A DNA stretch of 64,000 nt from Sphingopyxis sp. YF1 (lineage in GTDB: Bacteria; Pseudomonadota; Alphaproteobacteria; Sphingomonadales; Sphingomonadaceae). Location: assembly GCF_022701295.1 (NCBI RefSeq), contig NZ_CP033204.1, positions 3,996,501 through 4,060,500 on the forward strand, read 5' to 3'. The translations under genes and the position numbers were made by a program. Under the pieces are notes generated by a model. It did not search any database, had not been told where the DNA came from, and worked only from the letters and a program-made list of their open reading frames with translations. This document shows positions 11,703 to 49,990 of this stretch, piece by piece; positions within the stretch are counted from its first letter, which is position 1, and every line of letters begins with the position of its first letter.

Positions 11703-13010
11703 ATGGCCAGCCGAACCGATGCTCCGTCCGCGACCGAGGCCGATCCGATCGAGGCGCTGACCCGGCGTTTCGCCGCGACGCGGCACCTGTCGCTCGATCT
11801 CGTCGCGACGTTGTCCGATGCCGACGCCAGCGTCCAGTCGATGCCCGACGCCTCGCCCGCCAAATGGCACCTCGCGCATACGACCTGGTTCTTCGAAACC
11901 TTCGTGCTGCGCGATCATCTTCCCGGATACCGGCTGTTCGACGAACGCTATCCCTTTCTTTTCAACAGCTATTACGAGGCCGAAGGCGCGCGCCACGCGC
12001 GCGCGCAACGCGGGCTGCTGACGCGCCCGTCGCTCGATGAAATCCGCGTCTGGCGCGCGCATGTCGATGCCGCGGTCCAGCGCGCGCTGCCCGATCTGCC
12101 GCGCGCAGCGCAGGCGCTCGTCACCCTCGGCATCCATCACGAACAACAGCATCAGGAATTGCTGCTTACCGACATCAAGCATCTCTTCGCGCAGAATCCG
12201 CTCGGCCCCGCGGTGTGGGAGCAGGGTGCGATTCAGTGTAAAGTTGCGCAGTTTTCGGCGCCTTTGACGCGCAGCGGGGACGCCGCGCCGATGCGCTGGG
12301 TGCGCGGCGCCGAGGGGGTGGTCGGCATCGGCCATGCCGGCGACGGCTTCGCCTTCGACTGCGAAGGCCCGCGCTTTTCGGCGCTCCTCACGCCGCACGC
12401 GCTTGCCAGCCGTCCCGTGACCAACGGCGAGTGGCAACAATTTATCGCCGACGGCGGCTATCGCACCGCGTCGCTCTGGCTCAGCGACGGCTGGGCTTGG
12501 GTGCAGGACAAGGATGTGGCGGCGCCCGCCTACTGGCAGGACGGGCGATATTTCACTCTCGCGGGCTGGCAGGACATCGATCCCGCGGCGCCGGTCACCC
12601 ATATCAGCGTCTTCGAGGCCGACGCCTTCGCGAGCTGGGCCGGCGCGCGCCTGCCGACCGAAATCGAATGGGAGGCGGCGGCCGCCGTGCTCGACCCCGC
12701 CTCGGGCGCACAGCTCGATGCGGCCGGCCCCGTCCAGCCCGTCGCAGCGCCCGCCGCCGACACGGGCCTGCAACAGATGTTCGGCAGCGTGTGGGAATGG
12801 ACCGGCAGCGCCTATCGTCCCTATCCTGGCTTCCGCGCCGCGCCCGGCGCGGTCGGCGAATATAATGGCAAGTTCATGAGCGGCCAGTTCGTGCTGCGCG
12901 GCGGCAGCGTCGCGACCCCGCGCGGCCATATGCGGCCGACCTGTCGCAACTTTTTCTACCCGCACCAGCGCTGGCAGTTCACCGGCGTGCGGCTCGCGAA
13001 GGATCTTTGA
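11703..13010 (+). CDS. egtB: Ergothioneine biosynthesis sulfoxide synthase EgtB
   Basis: A 435-aa non-haem iron enzyme that couples hercynine with a cysteine-derived thiol and oxygen in ergothioneine synthesis. The N-terminal DinB-like domain has WHLAHTTWFFE (His 56/59) and HHEQQHQE (His 146 and His 150 in the H-x3-H iron-ligand pattern). The C-terminal formylglycine-generating-enzyme-like domain ends with GSVWEWTGS, YNGKFMSGQFVLRGGS and FYPHQRWQFTGVRLA. The start is the ATG at 11703 after a weak ribosome site. egtD starts 2 bp after its stop, forming a two-gene operon. Confidence 0.95.
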   Translation: MASRTDAPSATEADPIEALTRRFAATRHLSLDLVATLSDADASVQSMPDASPAKWHLAHTTWFFETFVLRDHLPGYRLFDERYPFLFNSYYEAEGARHARAQRGLLTRPSLDEIRVWRAHVDAAVQRALPDLPRAAQALVTLGIHHEQQHQELLLTDIKHLFAQNPLGPAVWEQGAIQCKVAQFSAPLTRSGDAAPMRWVRGAEGVVGIGHAGDGFAFDCEGPRFSALLTPHALASRPVTNGEWQQFIADGGYRTASLWLSDGWAWVQDKDVAAPAYWQDGRYFTLAGWQDIDPAAPVTHISVFEADAFASWAGARLPTEIEWEAAAAVLDPASGAQLDAAGPVQPVAAPAADTGLQQMFGSVWEWTGSAYRPYPGFRAAPGAVGEYNGKFMSGQFVLRGGSVATPRGHMRPTCRNFFYPHQRWQFTGVRLAKDL

Positions 13011-13012
13011 CC

Positions 13013-13999
13013 ATGGGCGTTGTGCGCAATCTTCGTCAGGTTTCGGCCGACGACGCCGGCGTCGACATGGCCTTTCGCGCCGACGTCCACGCCGGGCTGT
13101 CGCAGGCGCAAAAGGCGGTCCCCGCGCGCTGGTTCTACGATGCGACCGGATCGGCGTTGTTCGAGGATATCACCGCGCTCCCCGAATATTATCCGACACG
13201 CAGCGAAACCGGCCTGCTCACCCGCCACGCCGCCGATATCGCCGTGGCGGTCGGTCCCGGCCGCGCGGTGGTCGAACTGGGATCGGGCAGTTCGACCAAG
13301 ACGCCGCTGCTGCTCGATGCGATTGCGCCCGCGGCCTATGTTCCGGTCGATATCTCGGGCGATTTTCTTCGCGACAGCGCGCTCGCGCTGGCGGCGCGCT
13401 TCCCGGGTCTCGCCATCTATCCGGTCGAGGCCGATTTCACCCAGCGCGTATCCTTGCCGCGCGAAATCGCCGCCTTGCCCAAACTCGGCTTCTTTCCCGG
13501 CTCGACGATCGGCAACATGGTCGCACGCACCGCCGTCGATCTTCTGCGGGATTGGCGCGAGGCGCTCGGCGACGGCGCTCTGCTGCTGATCGGTATCGAC
13601 CGGATCAAGGATGTCGCGATTCTCGAACGGGCCTATGACGACCCCGCCGGGGTCACCGCGGCGTTCAATCTCAATCTGCTCGAACGCATCAACCGCGAAC
13701 TCGGCGGGACGATCCCGGTCGAAAATTTCACCCATCGTGCGGTCTGGGACGACGTCCATGCGCGCATCGAAATGCACCTCGTCGCGGCCTGCGCCATGGA
13801 CTTCACGGTCGACGGGCGCCGCTATCATATGGCGAAGGGCGAGACGATCCACAGCGAGAACAGCCATAAATATGGCCCGCGCGACGCGAACCTGCTGCTC
13901 CGCGCCGGCCGCTGGACACCCGTGGCGACCTGGGACGATGCCGACCCGGCCTTCGCGCTGATCCTCGCCCGGGCGACCGAGTTCCGCTCGGCTCCCTGA
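13013..13999 (+). CDS. egtD: L-histidine N(alpha)-methyltransferase EgtD
   Basis: A 328-aa SAM-dependent enzyme that trimethylates histidine to hercynine, the first step of ergothioneine synthesis. Characteristic segments: RWFYDATGSALFEDIT, LPEYYPTRSETGLL, the SAM-binding ELGSGSSTKTPLLLDA near residues 84-99, YVPVDIS, and FFPGSTIGN. The C-terminus has MEFT-like ACAMDFTV and GETIHSENSHKY for histidine binding. The start at 13013 is two bases past the egtB stop, indicating coupling. Confidence 0.96.
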   Translation: MGVVRNLRQVSADDAGVDMAFRADVHAGLSQAQKAVPARWFYDATGSALFEDITALPEYYPTRSETGLLTRHAADIAVAVGPGRAVVELGSGSSTKTPLLLDAIAPAAYVPVDISGDFLRDSALALAARFPGLAIYPVEADFTQRVSLPREIAALPKLGFFPGSTIGNMVARTAVDLLRDWREALGDGALLLIGIDRIKDVAILERAYDDPAGVTAAFNLNLLERINRELGGTIPVENFTHRAVWDDVHARIEMHLVAACAMDFTVDGRRYHMAKGETIHSENSHKYGPRDANLLLRAGRWTPVATWDDADPAFALILARATEFRSAP

Positions 14000-40080: not shown

Positions 40081-41130
40081 ATGACTGCAACCAGGAAAAC
40101 CGCGCTCGTTATCGCCCCCGGCCGCGGCACCTATGGCAAGGGCGAACTCGGCAGCATCGCGCGGCTGCACGGCGCACGCTTTGCCGACCGCATCGCGAAT
40201 TTCGACGCCCAGCGCCGCGACCGCGGCCAGGCGACGGTCAGCGAACTCGACGGCGCCGATCGCTTCAGCGTCGGGGTGCATATGCGCGGCGACGTCGCCG
40301 CGCCGCTGATCTACACCGCGACCGCGCTCGACTGGCTCAGCATCGATCGCGACCGATATGACGTCGTCGCCGTCGCGGGCAATTCGATGGGCTGGTACAG
40401 CGCGCTCGCGCTGGGCGGCGCGGTGTCGGTCGAGGACGGTTTCCGCATTTCGAACGCGATGGGACTCAACAGCCAGACCCACGGCCCCGGCGGGCAGATC
40501 CTGCTCCAGGTCGTCGACGAGGACTGGCGCCCGGTTCCCGGCCTGCGCGCAACCCTGTTCGACCTCGTCGCGTCCATCGCCGCGCGCCCCGGCCACGCGC
40601 TCGCGCTGTCGATCGATCTCGCCGGCATGCTCGTCCTCGCCGGAAATGAGGAAGGCCTTGCCGCCCTCCTCGCCGAAGCCCCGCCGACGCCCGGTCGTGA
40701 CCCGCTTCGCCTCGCGGGGCACGGTCCCTTCCACACCCCGCTGATGTTCGGCAGCTCGGACAAGGCCCGGGCCGAGCTGCCTGCTTCGCTCTTCGGCACG
40801 CCGGCGATCCCGCTGGTCGACGGGCGCGGCCATATCTGGCGGCGCTTCGCATCCGATCCCGCCGCGATGTGGGATTACACCTTCGGTCACCAGATCCTCG
40901 CGCCCTATGACTTCGCGCTGTCGGTGCAGGTCGCGGTCAAGGAATTCGCCCCCGACGTCGTCATCCTGCCGGGTCCCGGCGACACGCTCGGCGGTGCGAT
41001 CGCGCAATCGCTGATCGGCATCGAATGGCAGGGGATTGCCGGCAAGGCCGATTTCATGGCGCGGCAGGCGGCCGATCCGATCCTGCTGTCGATGGGCCGC
41101 GCCGAACAGCGTGCGCTGGTGATCGCCTGA
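40081..41130 (+). CDS. Acyltransferase-domain protein (malonyl-CoA:ACP transacylase-like)
   Basis: A 349-aa protein. The nucleophile elbow is GNSMGWYSALALGGAVSVED near residue 100 (a GxSxG variant of the FabD GHSLG), followed by a later acidic/His region (HGPFHTPLMF) matching the catalytic His segment of acyltransferases. The opening LVIAPGRGTYGKGELG replaces the usual FPGQG. Substrate unknown. Located next to the E1 fusion, separated by a repeat, suggesting a shared branched-chain acyl pathway; this link is inference. Confidence 0.8.
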   Translation: MTATRKTALVIAPGRGTYGKGELGSIARLHGARFADRIANFDAQRRDRGQATVSELDGADRFSVGVHMRGDVAAPLIYTATALDWLSIDRDRYDVVAVAGNSMGWYSALALGGAVSVEDGFRISNAMGLNSQTHGPGGQILLQVVDEDWRPVPGLRATLFDLVASIAARPGHALALSIDLAGMLVLAGNEEGLAALLAEAPPTPGRDPLRLAGHGPFHTPLMFGSSDKARAELPASLFGTPAIPLVDGRGHIWRRFASDPAAMWDYTFGHQILAPYDFALSVQVAVKEFAPDVVILPGPGDTLGGAIAQSLIGIEWQGIAGKADFMARQAADPILLSMGRAEQRALVIA

Positions 41131-41206: not shown

Positions 41207-41258
41207 AAAGCTGGTGACCCCTACGGGAATCGAACCCGTGTTTCAGCCGTGAGAGGGC
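41207..41258 (-). repeat. attL: 52-bp duplicate of the tRNA-Glu 3' part
   Basis: Identical over 52 bp to 49542-49593. It includes the CCA end, T-arm and variable region and stops at the anticodon stem-loop (GTGAGAGGGC). Identity breaks at 41259 (GCTAAC here, CGCGTC in the tRNA). This fragment cannot form a tRNA. Confidence 0.93.
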
Positions 41259-41376
41259 GCTAACATACGCAATCCCGCCGGTTGCTGATGCGACCGGAAA
41301 TGATCAGAAACAAAGGATATCAAGGGGATTCCGCCTAGCGATGTGTCGCATTGCGCCACGGTGTTTCTCTATGTAT

Positions 41377-41396
41377 ATTGGGGAAATATTAGGGAA
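41377..41396 (+). promoter_or_regulatory. Putative integrase arm-type sites, left end
   Basis: ATTGGGGAAAT (41377-41387) is directly followed by ATTAGGGAA (41388-41396), just before the integrase gene. The same two words recur inside the right end at 49492-49513. Paired short direct repeats inside both ends are the usual layout of tyrosine-integrase arm sites; binding is inferred. Confidence 0.5.
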
Positions 41397-41414
41397 GTGG
41401 CGAAGGGGTAAGCG

Positions 41415-42695
41415 ATGGCGCGCGTGGTTCAGGACACGAAGCTTGCGAAGCGCGAGCATCGTTTGCGGCTTGAGGCTCGTAAGAAACCCTATTGGATGAC
41501 ACTCAACGAAGGCGAGCATCTGGGCTATTATCGGGGGGCACGCGTCGGCAAATGGGTTGCGCGGTATCGCCGGGCCGGCGCGGGCGCGAATTATCAGGAA
41601 ACCACTATCGCCGAGGCGGACGATAGTGCTGATGCCGATGGCACAGTGATTCTGAATTTCAAACAGGCACAGGAAGCCGCGCGCGGTTGGTTTCTATCAT
41701 TGGAGAAAAATGCCGGACGTAGGCGCGGTGCCTATACAGTTTCCGATGCCTTGGACGATTACCTGCACGGCTTTCAGGGCAAAGATGTCGCCAACACGCG
41801 CCGCCGGATCGAAGCCATCGTGCGCCCCCAGATGGGGCATCACGAGGTCGCGGCACTCACGACACAGATTGTTCATGACTGGCTCATAGGTCTTGCCAGC
41901 GCGCCTGCCCGACTGCGAACTGCCAAAGGCGCATCGCAAAACGTTCGCATGACAGCGGACACCGACGAAGCCCGTCGCAGCCGCCGGTCGAGTGCCAATC
42001 GCATTCTCACTATTCTGAAAGCCGCGTTGAACCGCGCCTATCGTGACGGGACAGTCGGTGCTGACGATGCTTGGCGCAGGGTGAAGCCCTTTGCGAAGGC
42101 CGATGCGCCCCGCTTGCGATACCTGACCGACGATGAAGCCCGGCGTCTGACCAATGCCACCGACCGCGCGTTTCGACCGATTGTTCAGGCCGCGCTGCTT
42201 ACTGGCGCGCGCTATTCCGAACTCGCGAGATTGGAGGTTCGCGATTTCGACCGGCAATCACAGACTGTCTGGCTTCGCGAAACGAAGGCCGGGACGCCTC
42301 GCGCGGTCTATCTTGAAGGCGAAGGGGTCGAATTATTCGAACAGGCGACGGTCGGCAAAGAAGCTGACGCTTTGGTTTTTCCGCGTCCTGACGGAAAGAA
42401 ATGGGGGCCATCGCATCAGGCCCGTCCCTTGGCGGCTGCATGCGTCGCCGCCAAGCTTGCGCCAACAGGCTTTCACGATCTGCGCCGAACTTACGGGGCA
42501 CGGCTGGCGTTGCGCGGCGTGCCGATAGCCGTGATCGCCGAGGCATTGGGTCATGCGGACGAACGCATCACGCGGCGCCACTATGCGCACCTTTCCAAAT
42601 CCTATGTTGCGGATACGGTTCGAACGGCCGTTGCGGGGCTGGGGATTGTTGAAGCGAGCAATGTCGCTAGATTGGAACCGGCTCGGCAGCCGTGA
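41415..42695 (+). CDS. int: Tyrosine-type site-specific integrase
   Basis: A 426-aa phage/island integrase. Catalytic residues are all visible: Arg266 in TGARYSEL, His354-x-x-Arg357 in FHDLRR, His380 in LGHAD and the nucleophile Tyr390 in RRHYAHL. The N-terminal SAM-like core-binding region has an arm-type DNA-binding domain before it (EGEHLGYYRG, KWVARYRR). GAAGGGG precedes the ATG. It sits next to attL and is expected to recombine the 3' end of tRNA-Glu(CUC). Base composition is less GC-biased than the backbone. Confidence 0.95.
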   Translation: MARVVQDTKLAKREHRLRLEARKKPYWMTLNEGEHLGYYRGARVGKWVARYRRAGAGANYQETTIAEADDSADADGTVILNFKQAQEAARGWFLSLEKNAGRRRGAYTVSDALDDYLHGFQGKDVANTRRRIEAIVRPQMGHHEVAALTTQIVHDWLIGLASAPARLRTAKGASQNVRMTADTDEARRSRRSSANRILTILKAALNRAYRDGTVGADDAWRRVKPFAKADAPRLRYLTDDEARRLTNATDRAFRPIVQAALLTGARYSELARLEVRDFDRQSQTVWLRETKAGTPRAVYLEGEGVELFEQATVGKEADALVFPRPDGKKWGPSHQARPLAAACVAAKLAPTGFHDLRRTYGARLALRGVPIAVIAEALGHADERITRRHYAHLSKSYVADTVRTAVAGLGIVEASNVARLEPARQP

Positions 42696-43057
42696 TTGTT
42701 GCCGTGATCGGGACAGATTGTTCCGCATAGGGAAGGTTTTCGGTCGATCCGGCCGAGTCGAACAAAAAGTGATCAGACGACCGACCTCGATAAGCAGGTT
42801 TTCGACCATTTCTTGGAAAGGTAGAAAAATTTAAGGGGTGCGAGGCGCCCCGAATGCCAATGCCAAAATTGGCGGCTAACCGCCCGTTGAGCGCGATATG
42901 CCTTTTGCAACAAGCCGCCAAACGAATCGGAATAGCGACGAGTTGAGTCCTTATTCCGTCAGAAAGTGCATCACGGTGCTTCCCGGTGCTGCTATAAGAG
43001 GGCCATGGCCGAACTCCCCCTCCGAGGGGGCACCCCAGCCTTGGAAAGGAGGATAGA
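42696..43057. other. Non-coding gap between integrase and AlpA-type gene
   Basis: 362 bp without a supported gene. It holds GGGGTGC-GAG-GCGCCCC at 42836-42852 with an A/T-rich flank (AAAAATTTAA) on its left, which on the minus strand is a terminator-like hairpin. There is also a 6-bp hairpin CCCCCT-CCG-AGGGGG at 43016-43030 just upstream of the next ribosome site. Lower GC than the backbone; probably promoter and excision-control region. Confidence 0.5.
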
Positions 43058-43237
43058 ATGACAGCACGGCAATTTTTGACTGTTCAGGAGTTTTGCGACC
43101 GCTTCGCGGTTTCGCGTTCGACCTATTACCGGCTCGTCGCCAATGGCGATTTGGCACCGGTGCATATCGGGCGTGCGGTTCGCGTTCGCGCGACCGATGC
43201 TAGCAACTGGGCGGACTCGCTCGCTAACGATAACTGA
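43058..43237 (+). CDS. AlpA/excisionase-type helix-turn-helix protein
   Basis: A 59-aa protein, too short for many gene callers. A strong Shine-Dalgarno AAAGGAGG precedes the ATG. It begins MTARQFLTVQEFCDRFAVSR followed by STYYRLVANGDLAPVHIGRAVR and ends WADSLANDN. This is the AlpA/MerR-like winged-helix excisionase pattern (xxREVAxxxGVSRSTVYRLVKxGxFPxPVRIGxRxVR). Such proteins act as recombination directionality factors or activate integrase on P4-like islands. Fits its place between integrase and replication gene. Confidence 0.85.
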   Translation: MTARQFLTVQEFCDRFAVSRSTYYRLVANGDLAPVHIGRAVRVRATDASNWADSLANDN

Positions 43238-43596
43238 GCCGGGGCTGAAAGCAAAAGCGCCGACGAAAGCCTAGACCTTCGCCGACGCGCTATCCAAATC
43301 TTGGCGGACTGGATAATCGCTTTCTACCCCGATTCACGGATTGTGATCAAATGGAATCGCACGACGCGACAGCCATTTGAGATCAGTCGAACGGCGGGGC
43401 CGGGGCCATTGGTCCCGGCTCCATTTCCCTTGATCGGTGTTGGAGTGTCCCCTGTTGGCGCTGGACGTGCCTTTGAAACTTGCGCGATATTGTGCCCCGG
43501 TGTTCCGGAACAGCGGCGCGGTATGCGTGCATTGTCTAGCAGGATCAACGGCTTGCCGAGCTGACTCCCCCGCTGCCCTATTATTAGGCGGATCGA
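43238..43596. other. Gap before the replication gene
   Basis: 359 bp. It contains an unsupported 87-codon plus-strand frame (43301-43564) and an overlapping minus-strand frame; neither shows recognisable conservation and both have atypical composition. The imperfect dyad GCGCCGACGAAAG / CTTCGCCGACGCGC near 43258-43291 follows the AlpA stop and may be a terminator or origin-proximal structure. Confidence 0.4.
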
Positions 43597-44271
43597 ATGA
43601 CCCCGCGAGCGGTTGACGCGACAGCACGCCCGCGCCTGTTGAAGCGCGGCGGACGGCGCGACAGGGGCAGGGAGCGCGACCGGCTTACCGAACGCGAGTG
43701 CCGCGACCTGATCGCAGCGGCGCACAAGGCATGGGGAGCCGGTCGCCCCTTCAATCGCTTTGTGACGCTGGCATGGGTCAACGCCGGGATCGGACAGGAT
43801 GCGGTCGCGGTTCGACGCGTGACGGCGGCTTGGTTGAAGCTGGCGCGCGACTGGCTGGGCGCGCGGGGGCATCGCCCCTTGGTCTGGGCTTGGGTGATGG
43901 AGGATGGCGCGAACCGGGGCGGGTTGCATATCCACCTGTTGATGCACGTCCCGAACAATCTGGCGCCCCTGTTTTCGTCGATGCCGAGACGTTGGGTAAA
44001 GCAACTAACGCCGGGCGGGCGGTATGTGCGGGGCACGCTCGATACAAAGAAGTTTCGAACGGCCGATCCCAGCGGTGGCGATGCCGCGAGCATGGCCTAT
44101 GCGGGCGAATTGAACGCGAGGCTCCATTACATGCTGAAAGCCGCTCCAAGGGTGCTAGAGGGCAATCTGGGGGTCGAAGGGTGGCGATGGCCCGATGCGC
44201 CACCTTGGGGGCAACATTGCCGTATCAGCGGCGCGCGTCTGCGGATTTGGCAGGGATGGCGGCATTTCTAA
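43597..44271 (+). CDS. HUH-type replication initiator-like protein
   Basis: A 224-aa protein. The segment WAWVMEDGANRGGLHIHLLMHVP (shown in parts: VMEDGANRGG then LHIHLLMHV) places His111 and His113 in an HUH motif, as in rolling-circle Rep and relaxase-like endonucleases. A candidate catalytic Tyr178 lies in the downstream helix NARLHYMLKA, the usual place for Rep_1/phage gpA-like enzymes. The N-terminus is strongly basic. It probably nicks an origin in the excised island or initiates its replication; the assignment is from motif only. Stands between excisionase and the restriction operon. Confidence 0.72.
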   Translation: MTPRAVDATARPRLLKRGGRRDRGRERDRLTERECRDLIAAAHKAWGAGRPFNRFVTLAWVNAGIGQDAVAVRRVTAAWLKLARDWLGARGHRPLVWAWVMEDGANRGGLHIHLLMHVPNNLAPLFSSMPRRWVKQLTPGGRYVRGTLDTKKFRTADPSGGDAASMAYAGELNARLHYMLKAAPRVLEGNLGVEGWRWPDAPPWGQHCRISGARLRIWQGWRHF

Positions 44272-44471
44272 AATAGGCGAAAATAGGGGAGGGGGCGGGC
44301 GCATCCTTCGCGACAAAGGATCGGACAGCGCCGCTAATCCGCCACGCGAACGCTAACACAGTTTCCCGCCCGCGCGCGCGAGGCGGGGTTTCGGATTGTT
44401 TCCCAGCGTCCCGTTTCCAATTGATTTAGGAAAATCTTGGCGGCAGCGGCCGGGGCGGATAGACCCGCGCG

Positions 44472-47400
44472 ATGCATGACCCCAGCCTGTTCACGTCCGG
44501 TGCGCTCTTTACCCAGGATTATCTTGCCGAAGGAATCACTGCGACGGCGAATTACCGTGCGGTCGATGTTGCGGCCGTCCGGGCCGAGCTGGGGAATATC
44601 CTTGCGGGTTTTCCGCACGCCGATACCCCCAATGAAGCAACGACCGAAGGCGATCTGGTTTGGCCGGTCCTTCGCTTGCTGGGCTGGACCGATATTCTAA
44701 CCCAACAAAACCTGTCGGCGACCGGCCGCGTCGATGTTCCCGACGGGCTGCTCTTCATCGATGCGGAGGCCAAAGAGGCGGCGAACCAGCATCCCGAAGA
44801 GTGGCGGCGCTATGAATTCGGGGCGGCGGTGCTGGAAAGCAAGCGCTGGGGCCGCGCGCTCGACCGGGCCGAGGGGCGCAAGGGCGCCGACCGCGACACG
44901 CCTTCCACCCAATTGCTGCGCTACCTTCGCCGCATCGACGATTTGACTAACGGGCGGCTGCGCTGGGGCATATTGACCAACGGCGCCAAATGGCGGCTCT
45001 ATTTTTCGGGCGCGCGCTCGACCATCGACGATTATCTGGAGCTGGACCTGTCGCGCATTCTGTCGCTCGATCCCGACTTGCTCGATACCGGCCTGACCGA
45101 TGCCGACCGCGACCATTGGCTGGCGGTGTTCGTCGCCATGTTCTCACGCACCGCGTTCGAACGGGCGAGTGACACGGCGCCCAGCTTCCACGACAGCGCG
45201 CGCCGCGATGCCGCCTTTTACGAAGAGCGGGTGGCAAAGAGCCTGTCCGAAAAGGTGTTCGGCACGCTCTACCCGTCGCTGGGCAAAGCCGTTGCGGCGG
45301 CGGCGCCAGCCGATACCCCGCTCGACGACGTGCGGCAGGCGACGCTGATCCTGCTCTATCGCCTGCTGTTCGTCCTCTATGCCGAGGACCGGGGGCTATT
45401 ACCGGTGAAGGATCGACGGTTCGACGACTATGCCTTGCGCATCGCGCGCATCGACGTCGGGCAGCGCAAGGACGCGGGCGATGCCTTTTCTGCGGTCGCG
45501 CGCAATTACTGGAACCGCTTCGCCGACCTTGCCACCATGATCGACAAGGGCGATCCGTCGGTGGGATTGCCGCCCTATAATGGCGGGCTGTTCAATGCCG
45601 ACGCCACCCCCTTGCTGGCGTCGATTGCGCTGCCCGATGCGGTGATGGCGGAGGCGATCGACATATTGTCATTCGAACAAGCGGGCGGGCGGCGGCGCTA
45701 TATCAATTACCGCGACCTGTCGGTGCAACAGCTTGGTTCGATCTATGAGCGGTTGCTGGAATTCGAACTGACGCGCGATGCCGACGGCGCGGTCGATGTC
45801 CGGCCAAACATCTTCGCGCGCAAGAATTCGGGCAGCTATTACACGCCCGACGAGCTGGTCCTGTTGATCCTCGACGAAACGCTCGCGCCGCTGATCGAAG
45901 ATGCGCTGGACGGTTTCAAGGCGGGGCTGGCGGCGCTGAAACCCAAGGACAGCGAAGATTACCGCATCGCGCAGTTGCAGAAGGCCGATCCCGCGCGGGC
46001 GATCACGCGGTTGAAGGTTTGCGACCCGGCCATGGGGTCGGGCCATTTCCTTGTCTCGCTGGTTGATCGCCTGACCAATCACGCGCTCGACGCCATCGAA
46101 GAGGCGCGGGCGCTGGCACGCGATGTTGCGGAACTCGATTATGAAAGCCCGGTGTCCGAAGAGATTCGCCGGGTGCGCGCGACCATCCGGCACAATGCCG
46201 ACGACGCGGGCTGGAGCGTCAGCGAAGAGCAATTGGACGATCCCCAGCTTGTGAAGCGCATGGTGCTGAAACGCTGTGTCTATGGCGCCGACAAGAATCC
46301 GATGGCGGTCGAACTGGCGAAGGTCGCGCTGTGGCTGCATACCTTTACCGTCGGCGCGCCGCTGAGCTTTATCGACCATCATCTGGCGGCGGGCGACAGT
46401 CTGTTCGGGTTGTGGGTGCGCGACGCGCTCGACAAGGCGGGGAAGGGCGGCGGGCTGTTCCTGCACGAGCCGCTGACCAATGCGCAGCGCCAAGCTGTCG
46501 TCATGCGCACCATCGAATCGCTGACCGATGCCGAGGTGGCCGAGGCGCATCGCAGCGCCGAAATGTGGCACGACGTCGAAGCGCAGACGGGGCCGCTGGA
46601 CGGCTTTGTCAGCTTTATGCACGCGCTCGAATGGCTCGACCTGAAAAGGGAGGACAAGGCGCTGGTCGCGCTGTGGCTCGACGGGCGGTTCGGGGAACCG
46701 ATCCCGATTGCGCGCGGCCGGGTCGCGCCCGAAGGCGGCAAGGCGCGTCCCGAAGAGGTGGAGCGCTTTACGGCGGTCTGGCGCGAGGCGCGGGCGCTGA
46801 TCGACGAAGAGCGGTTCCTGAACTGGCAAATCCATTTTCCCGGTGTCTGGGACAATTGGGGCAGTACCGAACGCGAAGGCGGCTTCGACGCCATCGTGGG
46901 CAATCCGCCTTGGGACAGGATCAAGCTGCAACAGGTCGAATGGTTCGCGGCGCGGCGGCCCGACATTGCCAAGGCGCAGCGCGCATCCGATCGGGCGCGC
47001 ATGATCAAGGCGTTGAAAGGTGCTGGCGACCCGCTGTTCGACGATTACCAGAAGGCCGACAAGCGCGCCGCAGACACGCTGCGGATTGCCCGCAAGGGTG
47101 GGCATTACCCGCTGTTGAGCCGGGGCGACATCAACCTTTACAGCCTGTTCGTCGAGCGGGCGCATAGTCTGGTCAAACCGGGCGGGATGGTCGGGCTGTT
47201 GACCCCCAGCGGCATCGCGTCGGACCTGTCGGCATCGGAGTTTTTCCGCAAGATCGCGACCGGTTCCCATTTGCGCGCGCTCTATGATTTTGAGAATCGC
47301 CGCACGCGATACGGGCTGGAGCCATTCTTTCCCGACGTCGATAGCCGGTTCAAATTCGCAGCTATGATTGCCAGCCCCGCCCGGACGTTTGAAGCGTCGC

Positions 47401-48569
47401 ATTGCGGTTTCTTTCTGCAATCGGTCGATGAGCGCAAAAATCCCGATCAGGCGTTCCCGATCACGGCGGCGGACTTTGCGCGGGTCAATCCCAACACCGG
47501 CACCGCACCGATTTTCCGCACCCGCCGCGACATGGCGTTGACGACGGCAATCTATGGCCGCGTGCCGGTGCTGGTCGATAAATCTGGCGACGAGCCGAAG
47601 GCAGCGTGGCCCGTCAAATACGTGCGAATGTTCGATATGACGAACGACAGCCACTTGTTCCGCACGCGGGCCGAACTGGAGGGGCAAGAAGGCGCGTGGC
47701 CGATTGGCGGCAACCGCTGGCAGTCCGCAGCGGGGCAATGGGTGCCGCTCTACGGTGGGCGCATGATCCATCAATTTGATCATCGCGCAGCGTCGGTGAC
47801 GGTAAACGAAGAGAATTTGCACAATGCGGCTCTAAGCGGAGAGATTACGGCGGCAATGAAAGCCGACCCAGCGTTCGTGCCCGATCCGCAGTTTTTTGTT
47901 CTAGCGACCGCCGACGTTTCCAAGGGCGCAGCAATAGCGTTTCGGGATATTGCACGGGCAACCGATGCCCGCACCGCGATTGCGGCCTTTGTACCCAACC
48001 GGGCGGCGGGCAACACTGCGCCCCTTATTGTGTCCGACGCGCCACTGATCGAACAATGCCTTTTGCTGGCAAATCTGTCGGCCGTCGCCCTCGATTATGT
48101 CGTGCGCCAGAAGGCGCAAAGCACGCATCTTAATTGGTACATTGTCGAGCAATTGCCCCTGTTGCCGCCCGCCGCTTATGCACGCCCGTTCGGCCTTAAG
48201 TCTGCGAACGACATTGTTCGCGCCGCCGCATTGGAGCTGACCTACACCGCGCACGACATGGCGCCCTTCGCGCGCGACCTGGGGCATGTCGATGACGCGG
48301 GCGAAGTGCTGCCGCCCTTTATCTGGGACGAAGAGCGGCGGCTGCATTTGCGCGCCAAGCTCGATGCGCTCTATTTCATCCTCTACGGCATCTTCGATCC
48401 GGCCGACGTGGCGCAAAGCCGCGACGATATTCGCTACATCTATTCGACCTTCCCGATTGTGGAACGGCAGGACGCCGCCACCTATGGCAGCTATCGCAGC
48501 CGCGATCTTGCGCTGGCCTACATCAACGCGCTGATCGCCGGACAGCCCGACGCGGTGGTCGCGGGGTAA
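44472..48569 (+). CDS. Single-chain restriction-modification enzyme (type IIG/Eco57I-like)
   Basis: A 1365-aa protein. The N-terminal domain has a PD-(D/E)xK-like pattern: Asp91 in VPDGLLF and Glu122-x-Lys124 in AVLESKRW. Then come GSYYTPDELV, SAM motif I DPAMGSGHFLVS near residue 518, YGADKNPMAVELAKVALWLHTF, and the N6-adenine catalytic NPPW at 811-814. The C-terminal region (GLLTPSGIASDLSASEFF, later LNWYIVEQLPLLPP) is the target-recognition part. It should methylate and cut a specific DNA site. First of a three-gene operon on the island; the next start overlaps its stop. Confidence 0.88.
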   Translation: MHDPSLFTSGALFTQDYLAEGITATANYRAVDVAAVRAELGNILAGFPHADTPNEATTEGDLVWPVLRLLGWTDILTQQNLSATGRVDVPDGLLFIDAEAKEAANQHPEEWRRYEFGAAVLESKRWGRALDRAEGRKGADRDTPSTQLLRYLRRIDDLTNGRLRWGILTNGAKWRLYFSGARSTIDDYLELDLSRILSLDPDLLDTGLTDADRDHWLAVFVAMFSRTAFERASDTAPSFHDSARRDAAFYEERVAKSLSEKVFGTLYPSLGKAVAAAAPADTPLDDVRQATLILLYRLLFVLYAEDRGLLPVKDRRFDDYALRIARIDVGQRKDAGDAFSAVARNYWNRFADLATMIDKGDPSVGLPPYNGGLFNADATPLLASIALPDAVMAEAIDILSFEQAGGRRRYINYRDLSVQQLGSIYERLLEFELTRDADGAVDVRPNIFARKNSGSYYTPDELVLLILDETLAPLIEDALDGFKAGLAALKPKDSEDYRIAQLQKADPARAITRLKVCDPAMGSGHFLVSLVDRLTNHALDAIEEARALARDVAELDYESPVSEEIRRVRATIRHNADDAGWSVSEEQLDDPQLVKRMVLKRCVYGADKNPMAVELAKVALWLHTFTVGAPLSFIDHHLAAGDSLFGLWVRDALDKAGKGGGLFLHEPLTNAQRQAVVMRTIESLTDAEVAEAHRSAEMWHDVEAQTGPLDGFVSFMHALEWLDLKREDKALVALWLDGRFGEPIPIARGRVAPEGGKARPEEVERFTAVWREARALIDEERFLNWQIHFPGVWDNWGSTEREGGFDAIVGNPPWDRIKLQQVEWFAARRPDIAKAQRASDRARMIKALKGAGDPLFDDYQKADKRAADTLRIARKGGHYPLLSRGDINLYSLFVERAHSLVKPGGMVGLLTPSGIASDLSASEFFRKIATGSHLRALYDFENRRTRYGLEPFFPDVDSRFKFAAMIASPARTFEASHCGFFLQSVDERKNPDQAFPITAADFARVNPNTGTAPIFRTRRDMALTTAIYGRVPVLVDKSGDEPKAAWPVKYVRMFDMTNDSHLFRTRAELEGQEGAWPIGGNRWQSAAGQWVPLYGGRMIHQFDHRAASVTVNEENLHNAALSGEITAAMKADPAFVPDPQFFVLATADVSKGAAIAFRDIARATDARTAIAAFVPNRAAGNTAPLIVSDAPLIEQCLLLANLSAVALDYVVRQKAQSTHLNWYIVEQLPLLPPAAYARPFGLKSANDIVRAAALELTYTAHDMAPFARDLGHVDDAGEVLPPFIWDEERRLHLRAKLDALYFILYGIFDPADVAQSRDDIRYIYSTFPIVERQDAATYGSYRSRDLALAYINALIAGQPDAVVAG

Positions 48570-48778
48570 TGGCAAAACGCAAGCCCGACGTGCGAAAGGA
48601 TGGCGCCCTTTACTGGTTTTCGCTGCCCAAGGCCGCCGGGCTTGCCGGGTTGACCAAAAAGGAAATGATGCGCCGCGCCGATGCGGGGGAACTGCGCACC
48701 GATGCGATCGTGCAGCCGGACGACCGACTGGCGCGCATCGACATTTGGGGATTCGGTGCGCGTCGATTGCTGCTATGA
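48569..48778 (+). CDS. Small HTH-like protein in the restriction operon
   Basis: A 69-aa basic protein whose ATG shares one base with the upstream TAA. The middle region LPKAAGLAGLTKKEMMRRADAGELRTD resembles a MerR/excisionase-like helix-turn-helix followed by a strand. It may be a regulator or partner of the restriction enzyme, or an excision factor. Not in a family I can name. The following gene begins 7 bp later. Confidence 0.7.
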   Translation: MAKRKPDVRKDGALYWFSLPKAAGLAGLTKKEMMRRADAGELRTDAIVQPDDRLARIDIWGFGARRLLL

Positions 48779-48785
48779 TGGCAAC

Positions 48786-49421
48786 ATGGGTGGTTACGGA
48801 TCAGGACGGCAAGGCGGGCGACCGATTGCGGACAATGCGCTGTTCGTCGAACTGTCATGGATGCTGCGCACCGGGCGTGCGGTCGATGGCGAGATACGAA
48901 GTGGGCAATTGAGCTGGCAGCGGCGGGGCGAGACGTTCGCGTGGATCGGCTATCAGTGCGACATGACCGATCCCGACGCGGCGATGCTGACGCTGGATTA
49001 TCGTCGCACGCCCAGCGGCGGCGAACCGGAGAGTGTGACGCAGCGGATCAGGCTGGTTTCGACGCAGCCTCATTTCGGCGGACGGCGATGGTGGATGCTT
49101 TGCCCCTATCGCGGGGTGCGCGCCGACAAGCTGTATATGCCGAGCGGCGGCGACCGCTTCGCATCGCGGCAGGCATGGCGGCTGGGCTATCAGTCGCAAC
49201 GCGAGACGGCGCGCGACCGGCCATTCTCGCAACTGTTCGCGCTGCAAAAGCGGTTGGGGTGCGAAAGGGGCTGGGAACAGCCGATCCGCCGACCGAAGGG
49301 AATGTGGCACCGCACCTATGCGCGGCTCGAAGAGCGATATTGGGAACTGGACCAACGCTGCGCCGTCGAAATGATCGGGTCGCTGGCGCGATTGCGTGCA
49401 TTGGGGATAGCGAAGCCCTGA
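48786..49421 (+). CDS. Conserved mobile-element protein (GYGSGR type)
   Basis: A 211-aa protein starting MGGYGSGRQGGRP. It contains TQPHFGGRRWWMLCP and KLYMPSGGDRFASRQAWRLGYQSQRE. These segments match a protein family repeatedly seen on proteobacterial islands and plasmids, in which the middle normally carries a zinc ribbon (CPxC...CRxC). Here only one of those Cys is left, so the zinc site looks degenerate. Function unknown. Third gene of the restriction operon, adjacent to attR. Confidence 0.78.
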   Translation: MGGYGSGRQGGRPIADNALFVELSWMLRTGRAVDGEIRSGQLSWQRRGETFAWIGYQCDMTDPDAAMLTLDYRRTPSGGEPESVTQRIRLVSTQPHFGGRRWWMLCPYRGVRADKLYMPSGGDRFASRQAWRLGYQSQRETARDRPFSQLFALQKRLGCERGWEQPIRRPKGMWHRTYARLEERYWELDQRCAVEMIGSLARLRALGIAKP

Positions 49422-49491
49422 CTGCCGATCCGGCGGGCTGGCTATTTTAGTGAAAAATAGTGGGGCCAGCCTAGGCGTCGCAAGGGCGCTT

Positions 49492-49513
49492 ATTAGGGAT
49501 TCATTGGGGAAAT
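49492..49513 (+). promoter_or_regulatory. Putative integrase arm-type sites, right end
   Basis: ATTAGGGA (49492-49499) and ATTGGGGAAAT (49503-49513) repeat the words found before the integrase at 41377-41396, about 30 bp inside the right attachment site. The order of the two words is swapped relative to the left end. Confidence 0.5.
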
Positions 49514-49541
49514 GGCCCGGCCTTGTTCCAAAAATCCCGGA

Positions 49542-49593
49542 AAAGCTGGTGACCCCTACGGGAATCGAACCCGTGTTTCAGCCGTGAGAGGGC
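49542..49593 (-). repeat. attR: 3' part of tRNA-Glu
   Basis: Exact 52-bp match to 41207-41258. It forms the 3' half of the functional tRNA gene, so insertion left the tRNA intact. Confidence 0.93.
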
Positions 49594-49621
49594 CGCGTCC
49601 TGACCGCTAGACGAAGGGGCC
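49547..49621 (-). tRNA. tRNA-Glu (anticodon CUC)
   Basis: On the minus strand it reads GGCCCCTTCGTCTAGCGGTC and so on to AGGGGTCACCA. The acceptor stem GGCCCCT pairs with AGGGGTC (one G-U pair). The anticodon stem CGGCC/GGCTG encloses the loop CTCTCAC, giving anticodon CTC. T-arm ACGGGTTCGATTCCCGT is standard and the CCA end is encoded (49547-49549). Total 75 nt. It serves as the island attachment site. Confidence 0.97.
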
Positions 49622-49652
49622 GCAAATGCCGGTCCGGCATGAAGACCGAAGA

Positions 49653-49669
49653 TGGTGACCCCTACGGGA
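49653..49669 (-). repeat. Third partial copy of the tRNA-Glu 3' end
   Basis: 17 bp (TGGTGACCCCTACGGGA) identical to 49547-49563, in the same orientation, 31 bp beyond the tRNA 5' end. Just after it lies a nested hairpin (GTCGGA 49673-49678 with TCCGAC 49700-49705; TGGGCT 49679-49684 with AGCCCA 49688-49693). It may be a relic of a second tRNA-Glu copy or of another attachment site. Confidence 0.6.
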
Positions 49670-49811: not shown

Positions 49812-49990
49812 GCGCCTGATCCCGGTCATAGCCGGCCACGAGACCGATGCCTGAGAGCTGCCGTTCGGGTGCTTCAGAACTTACCGGCAGGAACGCGCCT
49901 GATCTAAGCCGTAGCCGGCCGCGAGGCGGCAGCCTGAAACCTGCCGTTCGCGAATGTCAGAGCAGGAAATCAGCAATGCGCCCGATTTCG
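49812..49990. repeat. Imperfect 83-bp tandem repeat, two units plus start of a third
   Basis: GCGCCTGATC begins units at 49812 and 49895, and the variant GCGCCCGATT begins a third at 49978; period is 83 in each case. Within units, TAGCCGGCC (49829, 49912) and CTGCCGTTCG (49858, 49941) are conserved, with the rest about two-thirds identical. No frame runs through it. It occupies the gap 49622-50097, which otherwise holds no gene. Confidence 0.75.

Follow-up and report, generated by a model that had tools for sequence, protein, structure and literature searches.

The 64,000-nucleotide window analysed here (positions 3996501-4060500 of the Sphingopyxis sp. YF1 genome, which is one contig of 4,367,405 bases) contains a small island at a tRNA-Glu(CTC) gene. 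As shown in Table 1, the island is bounded by two exact copies of a 52-bp direct repeat, 8335 bp apart. In the right copy, 47 of the 52 bases are the 3' part of the tRNA gene and the remaining five lie downstream of it. An exact repeat this long is far beyond chance. Six genes lie between these att copies, all on the plus strand: an integrase gene (int), alpA, a HUH rep gene, a type IIG-like restriction-modification (RM) gene and two small open reading frames (ORFs), the second of which encodes the protein named GGY. Family-profile scans of the six proteins matched no structural-phage, type IV secretion system (T4SS), relaxase or coupling family, so neither the relaxase family of an integrative and mobilizable element (IME) nor the T4SS of an integrative and conjugative element was found among them. 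The tRNA-Glu duplication and the 8.3-kb gene list of the original prediction were confirmed; the prediction had overlooked a conserved candidate origin, the remnant of a twin tRNA-Glu(TTC) gene and the wider family to which the island belongs.

Table 1. Features of the island and its tRNA gene (window coordinates; aa, amino acids).
Feature	Position	Strand	Supporting observation
att copy distal to tRNA, adjoining int	41207..41258	.	exact 52-bp repeat
Tyrosine integrase, 426 aa	41415..42695	+	PF00589 E 2.4e-23; phrog_1 integrase
AlpA/excisionase-type helix-turn-helix protein, 59 aa	43058..43237	+	PF12728 (HTH_17) 37.1 bits, cut-off 27; TIGR01764 excise 38.2, cut-off 28.8
Candidate origin	43447..43506	+	core TTGAAACTTGCG at 43473-43484; GTnnC-type repeats from 43447, 43467, 43492, 43502
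Predicted HUH Rep, 224 aa	43597..44271	+	PF23343, under curated cut-off
Type IIG-like RM protein, 1365 aa, cargo slot	44472..48569	+	Eco57I PF07669 74.6 bits; PADLOC DrmMI 1.1e-71, REase_MTase_IIG 4.6e-57
Small ORF, 69 aa	48569..48778	+	52% relative over 46 aa beside L124 RM gene; no family match
GGY protein, 211 aa, conserved far-end gene	48786..49421	+	48-63% relatives downstream of cargo
att copy at tRNA	49542..49593	.	exact 52-bp repeat
tRNA-Glu(CTC), complete	49547..49621	-

The residues H111, H113, E102, Y178 and K181 of the Rep are invariant among the aligned relatives. With the HxH motif (H111, H113), a Y178 that is invariant in both alignments and a Rep-like fold recovered by VIA-align, the protein qualifies by motif and fold as a HUH Rep with predicted activity. 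The structure model has a mean pLDDT of 82, and its best VIA-align neighbours are SIRV1 ORF119 and AAV Rep. Both share the fold and the HUH architecture with the island Rep at 9-12% identity in the alignments, a structural likeness that does not demonstrate sequence kinship. PF23343 (ORF2/G2P) was matched by all 14 aligned Reps at E up to 0.1, the match of the window Rep falling below the curated cut-off. YagK_YfjJ_C (PF11726; inovirus Gp2-like) matched weakly in three of the 14 (best E 0.011), the window Rep not among them.

Rep matches were found in five of 80 genus genomes, this one included, and G010 alone is close. Across the family, at least 47 of 397 genomes and 34 of 96 genera have a match at E 1e-6; family-wide counts of Rep and GGY are lower bounds, as few candidates were scored per genome. 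A contig scan with the 14 aligned Reps returned 14 named loci, of which 12 are titled as sphingomonads, including Pontixanthobacter, Qipengyuania, Aquisediminimonas and Polymorphobacter. The close-Rep set comprises 20 elements with the window included and duplicates counted once; L134, L135, L137, L140, L143 and L144 were dropped as coming from genomes already in the set. Genes in relatives were called by a simple ORF picker and checked by tblastn, with no gene finder. The order int - alpA - rep - GGY was recovered by tblastn in 14 of the 20, most of them at other tRNA genes. A tRNA gene (Glu, Leu, Ser, Thr or Arg) adjoins 18 elements, and none was found in the retrieved DNA of L123 and L136. 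Seven of the other 19 elements have direct repeats at the tRNA gene, 14-48 bp long, in two layouts. The tRNA lies at the int end in L114, L116, L124, L125 and L139 (14-17 bp repeats), and at the far end, as in the window, in L115 (48 bp) and L056 (19 bp). In the other twelve no bounding repeat of at least 14 bp with the tRNA was seen. The proposal of a compact element of integration, replication and defence only is thus supported, and such elements recur in other genera. Relatives of the island integrase at 77-80% were found in G080, at tRNA-Glu, and in G280; the one in G280 (L178, G280:C1:1362500-1382400; 80%) has no rep, alpA or GGY match in about 16 kb downstream.

A conserved sequence was found upstream of rep. 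The heptamer TTGAAAC occurs there, in the same orientation, in all 19 elements with an intact rep; L123 was left out of this count because its rep is truncated, and it has no motif. In 18 of the 19 it lies 69-128 bp from the called rep start, and in L124 it lies at the called start. In 9,500 bases of DNA sampled further upstream, TTGAAAC occurred once. The longer TTGAAACTT is exact in 14 of the 19 elements, and the 4.37-Mb genome contains the 13-mer TTTGAAACTTGCG a single time. Repeats of the GTnnC type flank the core in 10-bp phase. GT stands at -26, -16, -6, +19 and +29 in 9, 15, 14, 16 and 18 of the 19 elements, and is followed two or three bases later by C in 8, 15, 14, 15 and 18. With Reps more than 70% alike removed, the GT+C counts are 7, 12, 11, 12 and 15 of 16, while 300 draws of randomly shifted anchors gave no GT column above 6 of 19. 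In the window, four of these five family positions are occupied.

Among more distant Reps, 31 rows were scanned; after removal of six repeated genome loci and of L145, which has no upstream DNA, 24 distinct loci remained, and TTGAAACTT precedes rep in 15 of them (in L147, on the other strand). In seven of the 15 (L003, L101, L108, L109, L112, L113 and L146) it sits in a hairpin of the form TTGAAACTTCACCG...CGGTGAAGTTTCAA, whose arms measure 12-14 bp, and it was not seen elsewhere in the retrieved distant-Rep loci. Ten loci defined by tblastn carry GGY without a HUH rep. Nine of them lack TTGAAACTT throughout the retrieved DNA, the tenth (L161) has one copy some 0.9 kb past GGY, and in none of the ten does the origin motif lie between int and GGY. 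These comparisons indicate that the TTGAAAC/GTnnC region is likely the Rep origin and TTGAAACTT its putative nick site.

The 1365-amino-acid RM protein has the Eco57I-type methylase domain expected of type IIG enzymes. No nuclease family was matched by its N-terminal part, and the IIG profiles align in parts. A DISARM system would require drmA, drmB and partners; the DrmMI-like gene stands alone here, and the other five island proteins match no DISARM model. L118, which ends at a contig end, was left out of the cargo count, and 16 of the 19 readable elements have RM or methylase genes between rep and GGY, of types I, II, IIG, ISP and III. The window type of IIG gene is shared by L116, L122, L123 and L124 (65-76% to the window; in two frames in L123), and another IIG type occurs in L120 and L141. 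Type ISP genes are found in L115, L117, L136 and L139, a C5 methylase with Vsr and an MvaI/BcnI-type nuclease (type II) in L119, a type III system in L125, type I HsdM-S-R in L142, an N4/N6 methylase with an AAA_5 protein in L056 and a C5 methylase set in L138. The cargo of L136, L139 and L141 was classed by 65-82% similarity to members assigned by HMM. The three slots without RM or methylase genes are those of L114, L121 and L126; L126 has a 662-amino-acid protein without a match.

The comparisons point to modular exchange. Compared with the window, L124 has an RM protein at 76% and a Rep at 43%, and the integrases do not match at E 0.01; L115 has an integrase at 78%, a Rep at 46% and an RM system of a different class. 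Beside tRNA-Thr, L119, L120, L141 and L142 have integrases 77-85% and Reps 68-85% alike and carry type II, IIG, IIG and type I cargo, respectively. Compared at the sequence level, the elements show that RM systems have been swapped within the slot between rep and GGY. The IIG genes of L120 (5774-9532) and L141 (10799-14569) are opposite in strand to rep and GGY, unlike that of the window. The slot of L121 holds a polysaccharide flippase (12519-13838), perhaps a phage-receptor change. In L138 (10811-16279) the C5 methylase is accompanied by mad6/PD-T4-6-like and CARF-like proteins, possibly an undescribed defence set.

Of the 20 close-Rep elements, the window included, 17 have GGY, and in the family it was found in at least 29 of 298 genomes. 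The protein had no family match in profile scans and no Foldseek hit at E <= 0.001. It also occurs in loci without a HUH rep, namely L168 (int - IIG - GGY), L161 (int - alpA - GGY), L163 and L164, and alone beside tRNA genes in L162 and L169. From its recurrent position, GGY is a core gene marking the far end of the elements.

The gene on the left flank of the island (40081-41130) is present in 71 of 80 genus genomes, and 19 kb was retrieved around it in 39 of them. A complete tRNA-Glu(CTC) was found in 21 of these neighbourhoods, at a distance of roughly 0.95-16 kb from the left-flank gene, and within the 19 kb it was not found in the other 18. In 17 of the 21 a twin tRNA-Glu(TTC) follows directly. 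Eleven of the 21 were compared with the island by blastn (E 1e-10), and none had a match. In nine of these the right flank corresponds to this genome just past its tRNA-Glu(TTC) at 4162236; of the remaining two, L069 (G002) matches the start of a second element that adjoins the island, and L037 matches nothing. Because of these tRNA and right-flank comparisons, we consider the integration place a hotspot with island-free relatives. The original prediction would have fallen had no strain kept an empty tRNA-Glu site, or had the same genes stood here without the duplication. Island-free relatives in which tRNA-Glu(CTC) is uninterrupted do exist, and in none of the four other Rep-positive genus genomes do the Rep match and the left-flank gene lie close together on one contig.

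Taken together, the island is probably an integrative rolling-circle element of a sphingomonad family, moved by a helper and equipped with an exchangeable RM slot. From the anatomy of the island, Int would recombine the 52-bp att copies, and AlpA, by analogy with published AlpA systems, may act as a switch or excision factor. At the TTGAAACTT core of the origin, 124 bp before the rep start, the HUH Rep would nick the excised circle, and rolling-circle replication would proceed from this origin, which the comparison supports. Since no gene for a capsid, a relaxase or a T4SS was recognised in the island, it would rely on a helper, most likely a phage packaging the multimeric product. The RM protein would shield both the host and the element against other phages, and it would make losing the island costly. 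A satellite role with helper-dependent transfer is what we infer by analogy with the experiments on the PICMI and I55 islands discussed below. A tailed-phage portal gene is present at 330861 in the host genome, a co-occurrence without an established link to the island. A bolder version is possible and is put forward tentatively: an undescribed rolling-circle phage satellite family ferrying RM systems, in which GGY would be a packaging or transfer factor and the RM slot would act against rivals of the helper, spread across many sphingomonad genera by integrases switching between tRNA genes.

Several observations weigh against the rolling-circle element proposed here. The window lacks the GTnnC repeat at -16, one of the five, and among the 24 distant loci TTGAAACTT is absent in nine and on the opposite strand only in one. 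The Rep had no Foldseek hit reaching E 0.001. Its relatives numbered zero in IMG/VR, in 72,556 plasmid records (E 1e-5) and in 50,697 phage records, in searches of limited sensitivity; therefore no particle or free circle was seen. Six members of the close-Rep set of 20 are cut, decayed or otherwise incomplete: L126 retains only a fragment of int, L117 has no confident alpA, L056 lacks GGY, L138 has neither int nor GGY, L118 reaches its contig end before any GGY, and L123 is decayed, without alpA and with parts of the rest (a truncated rep, an RM gene split over two frames and a broken GGY). Finally, no relative showed the exact left half or junction of an empty site, the left flank being about 1 kb or more in relatives versus 77 bp here.

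Four other explanations were considered. HUH enzymes include relaxases, and the Rep might double as a relaxase at TTGAAACTT while a resident conjugative element supplies the channel, which would make the island an IME. VirB4-family matches elsewhere in the genome (1814469 and 3890416) and the hairpin of the distant clade, which could act as a nic site, agree with this; however, the six proteins match no relaxase, coupling or T4SS family, the second element of about 116 kb beside the island has no VirB4 match, and the plasmid records held no Rep relative, so we regard an IME as unlikely. Another reading, which concerns the motif only and is somewhat less probable still, takes TTGAAAC as the -35 box of a promoter or as an operator for AlpA instead of the Rep origin. 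TTGAAA resembles the -35 hexamer, and in the window the motif lies between alpA and rep. However, conservation extends beyond six bases, phased repeats stand on both sides, the distant clade adds a hairpin, and L161, with int and alpA and no HUH rep, has no motif between int and GGY. The island could also be a formerly mobile defence island that is now fixed, its conservation reflecting host selection on RM only. The single Rep copy in the genome, the one close relative in the genus and decayed relatives (L123, the int fragment of L126, the lone GGY of L169 beside a tRNA) fit such a history, but in the window int, alpA, rep and the origin are all complete and open, and the pairing of rep with the origin persists down to 38-48% Rep identity, which makes it improbable. 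Least probable is a filamentous-phage satellite or remnant whose G2P-type Rep makes single-stranded circles for an inovirus helper to extrude: the PF23343 and YagK_YfjJ_C matches point that way, but the host genome has no Zot match, no phage record carries the Rep and no structural gene was matched in the island.

The proposed helper-moved rolling-circle element was compared with described systems. Phage-inducible chromosomal minimalist islands (PICMI) of Vibrionaceae form concatemers consistent with rolling circle (PMC10803314). They are likewise small, with int, AlpA, one replication gene, a defence slot beyond and no capsid-remodelling genes in that account (PMC10803314). The PF00589 integrase and an AlpA protein (PF05930 or PF12728, here PF12728 over cut-off) are shared. 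However, the DUF3987/DUF5906 primase has no match in the six island proteins, which include a HUH Rep instead; PICMI sit downstream of fis and the island at tRNA-Glu; and the far-end GGY gene is a further difference. Activation and packaging by a helper phage also belong to the definition of PICMI. In Pseudomonas, I55 is reportedly moved by a jumbo phage and protects by type II RM (PMC12595487). The I23, I44 and I55 islands resemble ours in the tyrosine integrase with AlpA, in RM or other defence and in the described absence of autonomous transfer genes (PMC12595487). They also have an inovirus Gp2-like protein; of the 14 aligned Reps, three weakly match the corresponding PF11726, the window Rep not among them. 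By contrast, they lie downstream of tmRNA (PMC12595487), range in size from below 20 kb to above 70 kb against 8.3 kb here, commonly carry RadC and YqaJ, and have alpA at the end opposite int and not directly after it. The plan of the island resembles PICMI and the I55 class, and it belongs to neither: the primase and the fis site speak against PICMI, and the tmRNA site against the I55 class. In GIsul2, too, alpA and rep genes come after the integrase, and overexpressed AlpA raised its circle formation (PMC9376610). It differs by its guaA site and its resistance and transfer-related genes, and the likeness is one of gene order. The claim that such a class is undescribed for sphingomonads fits the searches made of open PMC papers, with the reservation that published work on Vibrio and Pseudomonas describes functional analogues.

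Sphingomonads would thereby join Vibrio and Pseudomonas as hosts of the minimal satellite-like layout, here with another replication engine. The concrete origin sequence can be tested with one oligonucleotide, and since type I, II, IIG, ISP and III systems trade places in one chassis, the travel of RM systems becomes directly testable.

The second element, about 116 kb long, splits the twin tRNA-Glu(TTC) and lies in tandem with the island, from 49649 to beyond 64000 of the window (genome about 4046150-4162235). Beside the island only the last bases of tRNA-Glu(TTC) are left, within 49649-49669. The first 222 bp of the second element (from 49680) are found at 95% identity in G002 (L069). Near its start, at 49812-49961, are two 67-bp copies, 75% identical and 83 bp apart.

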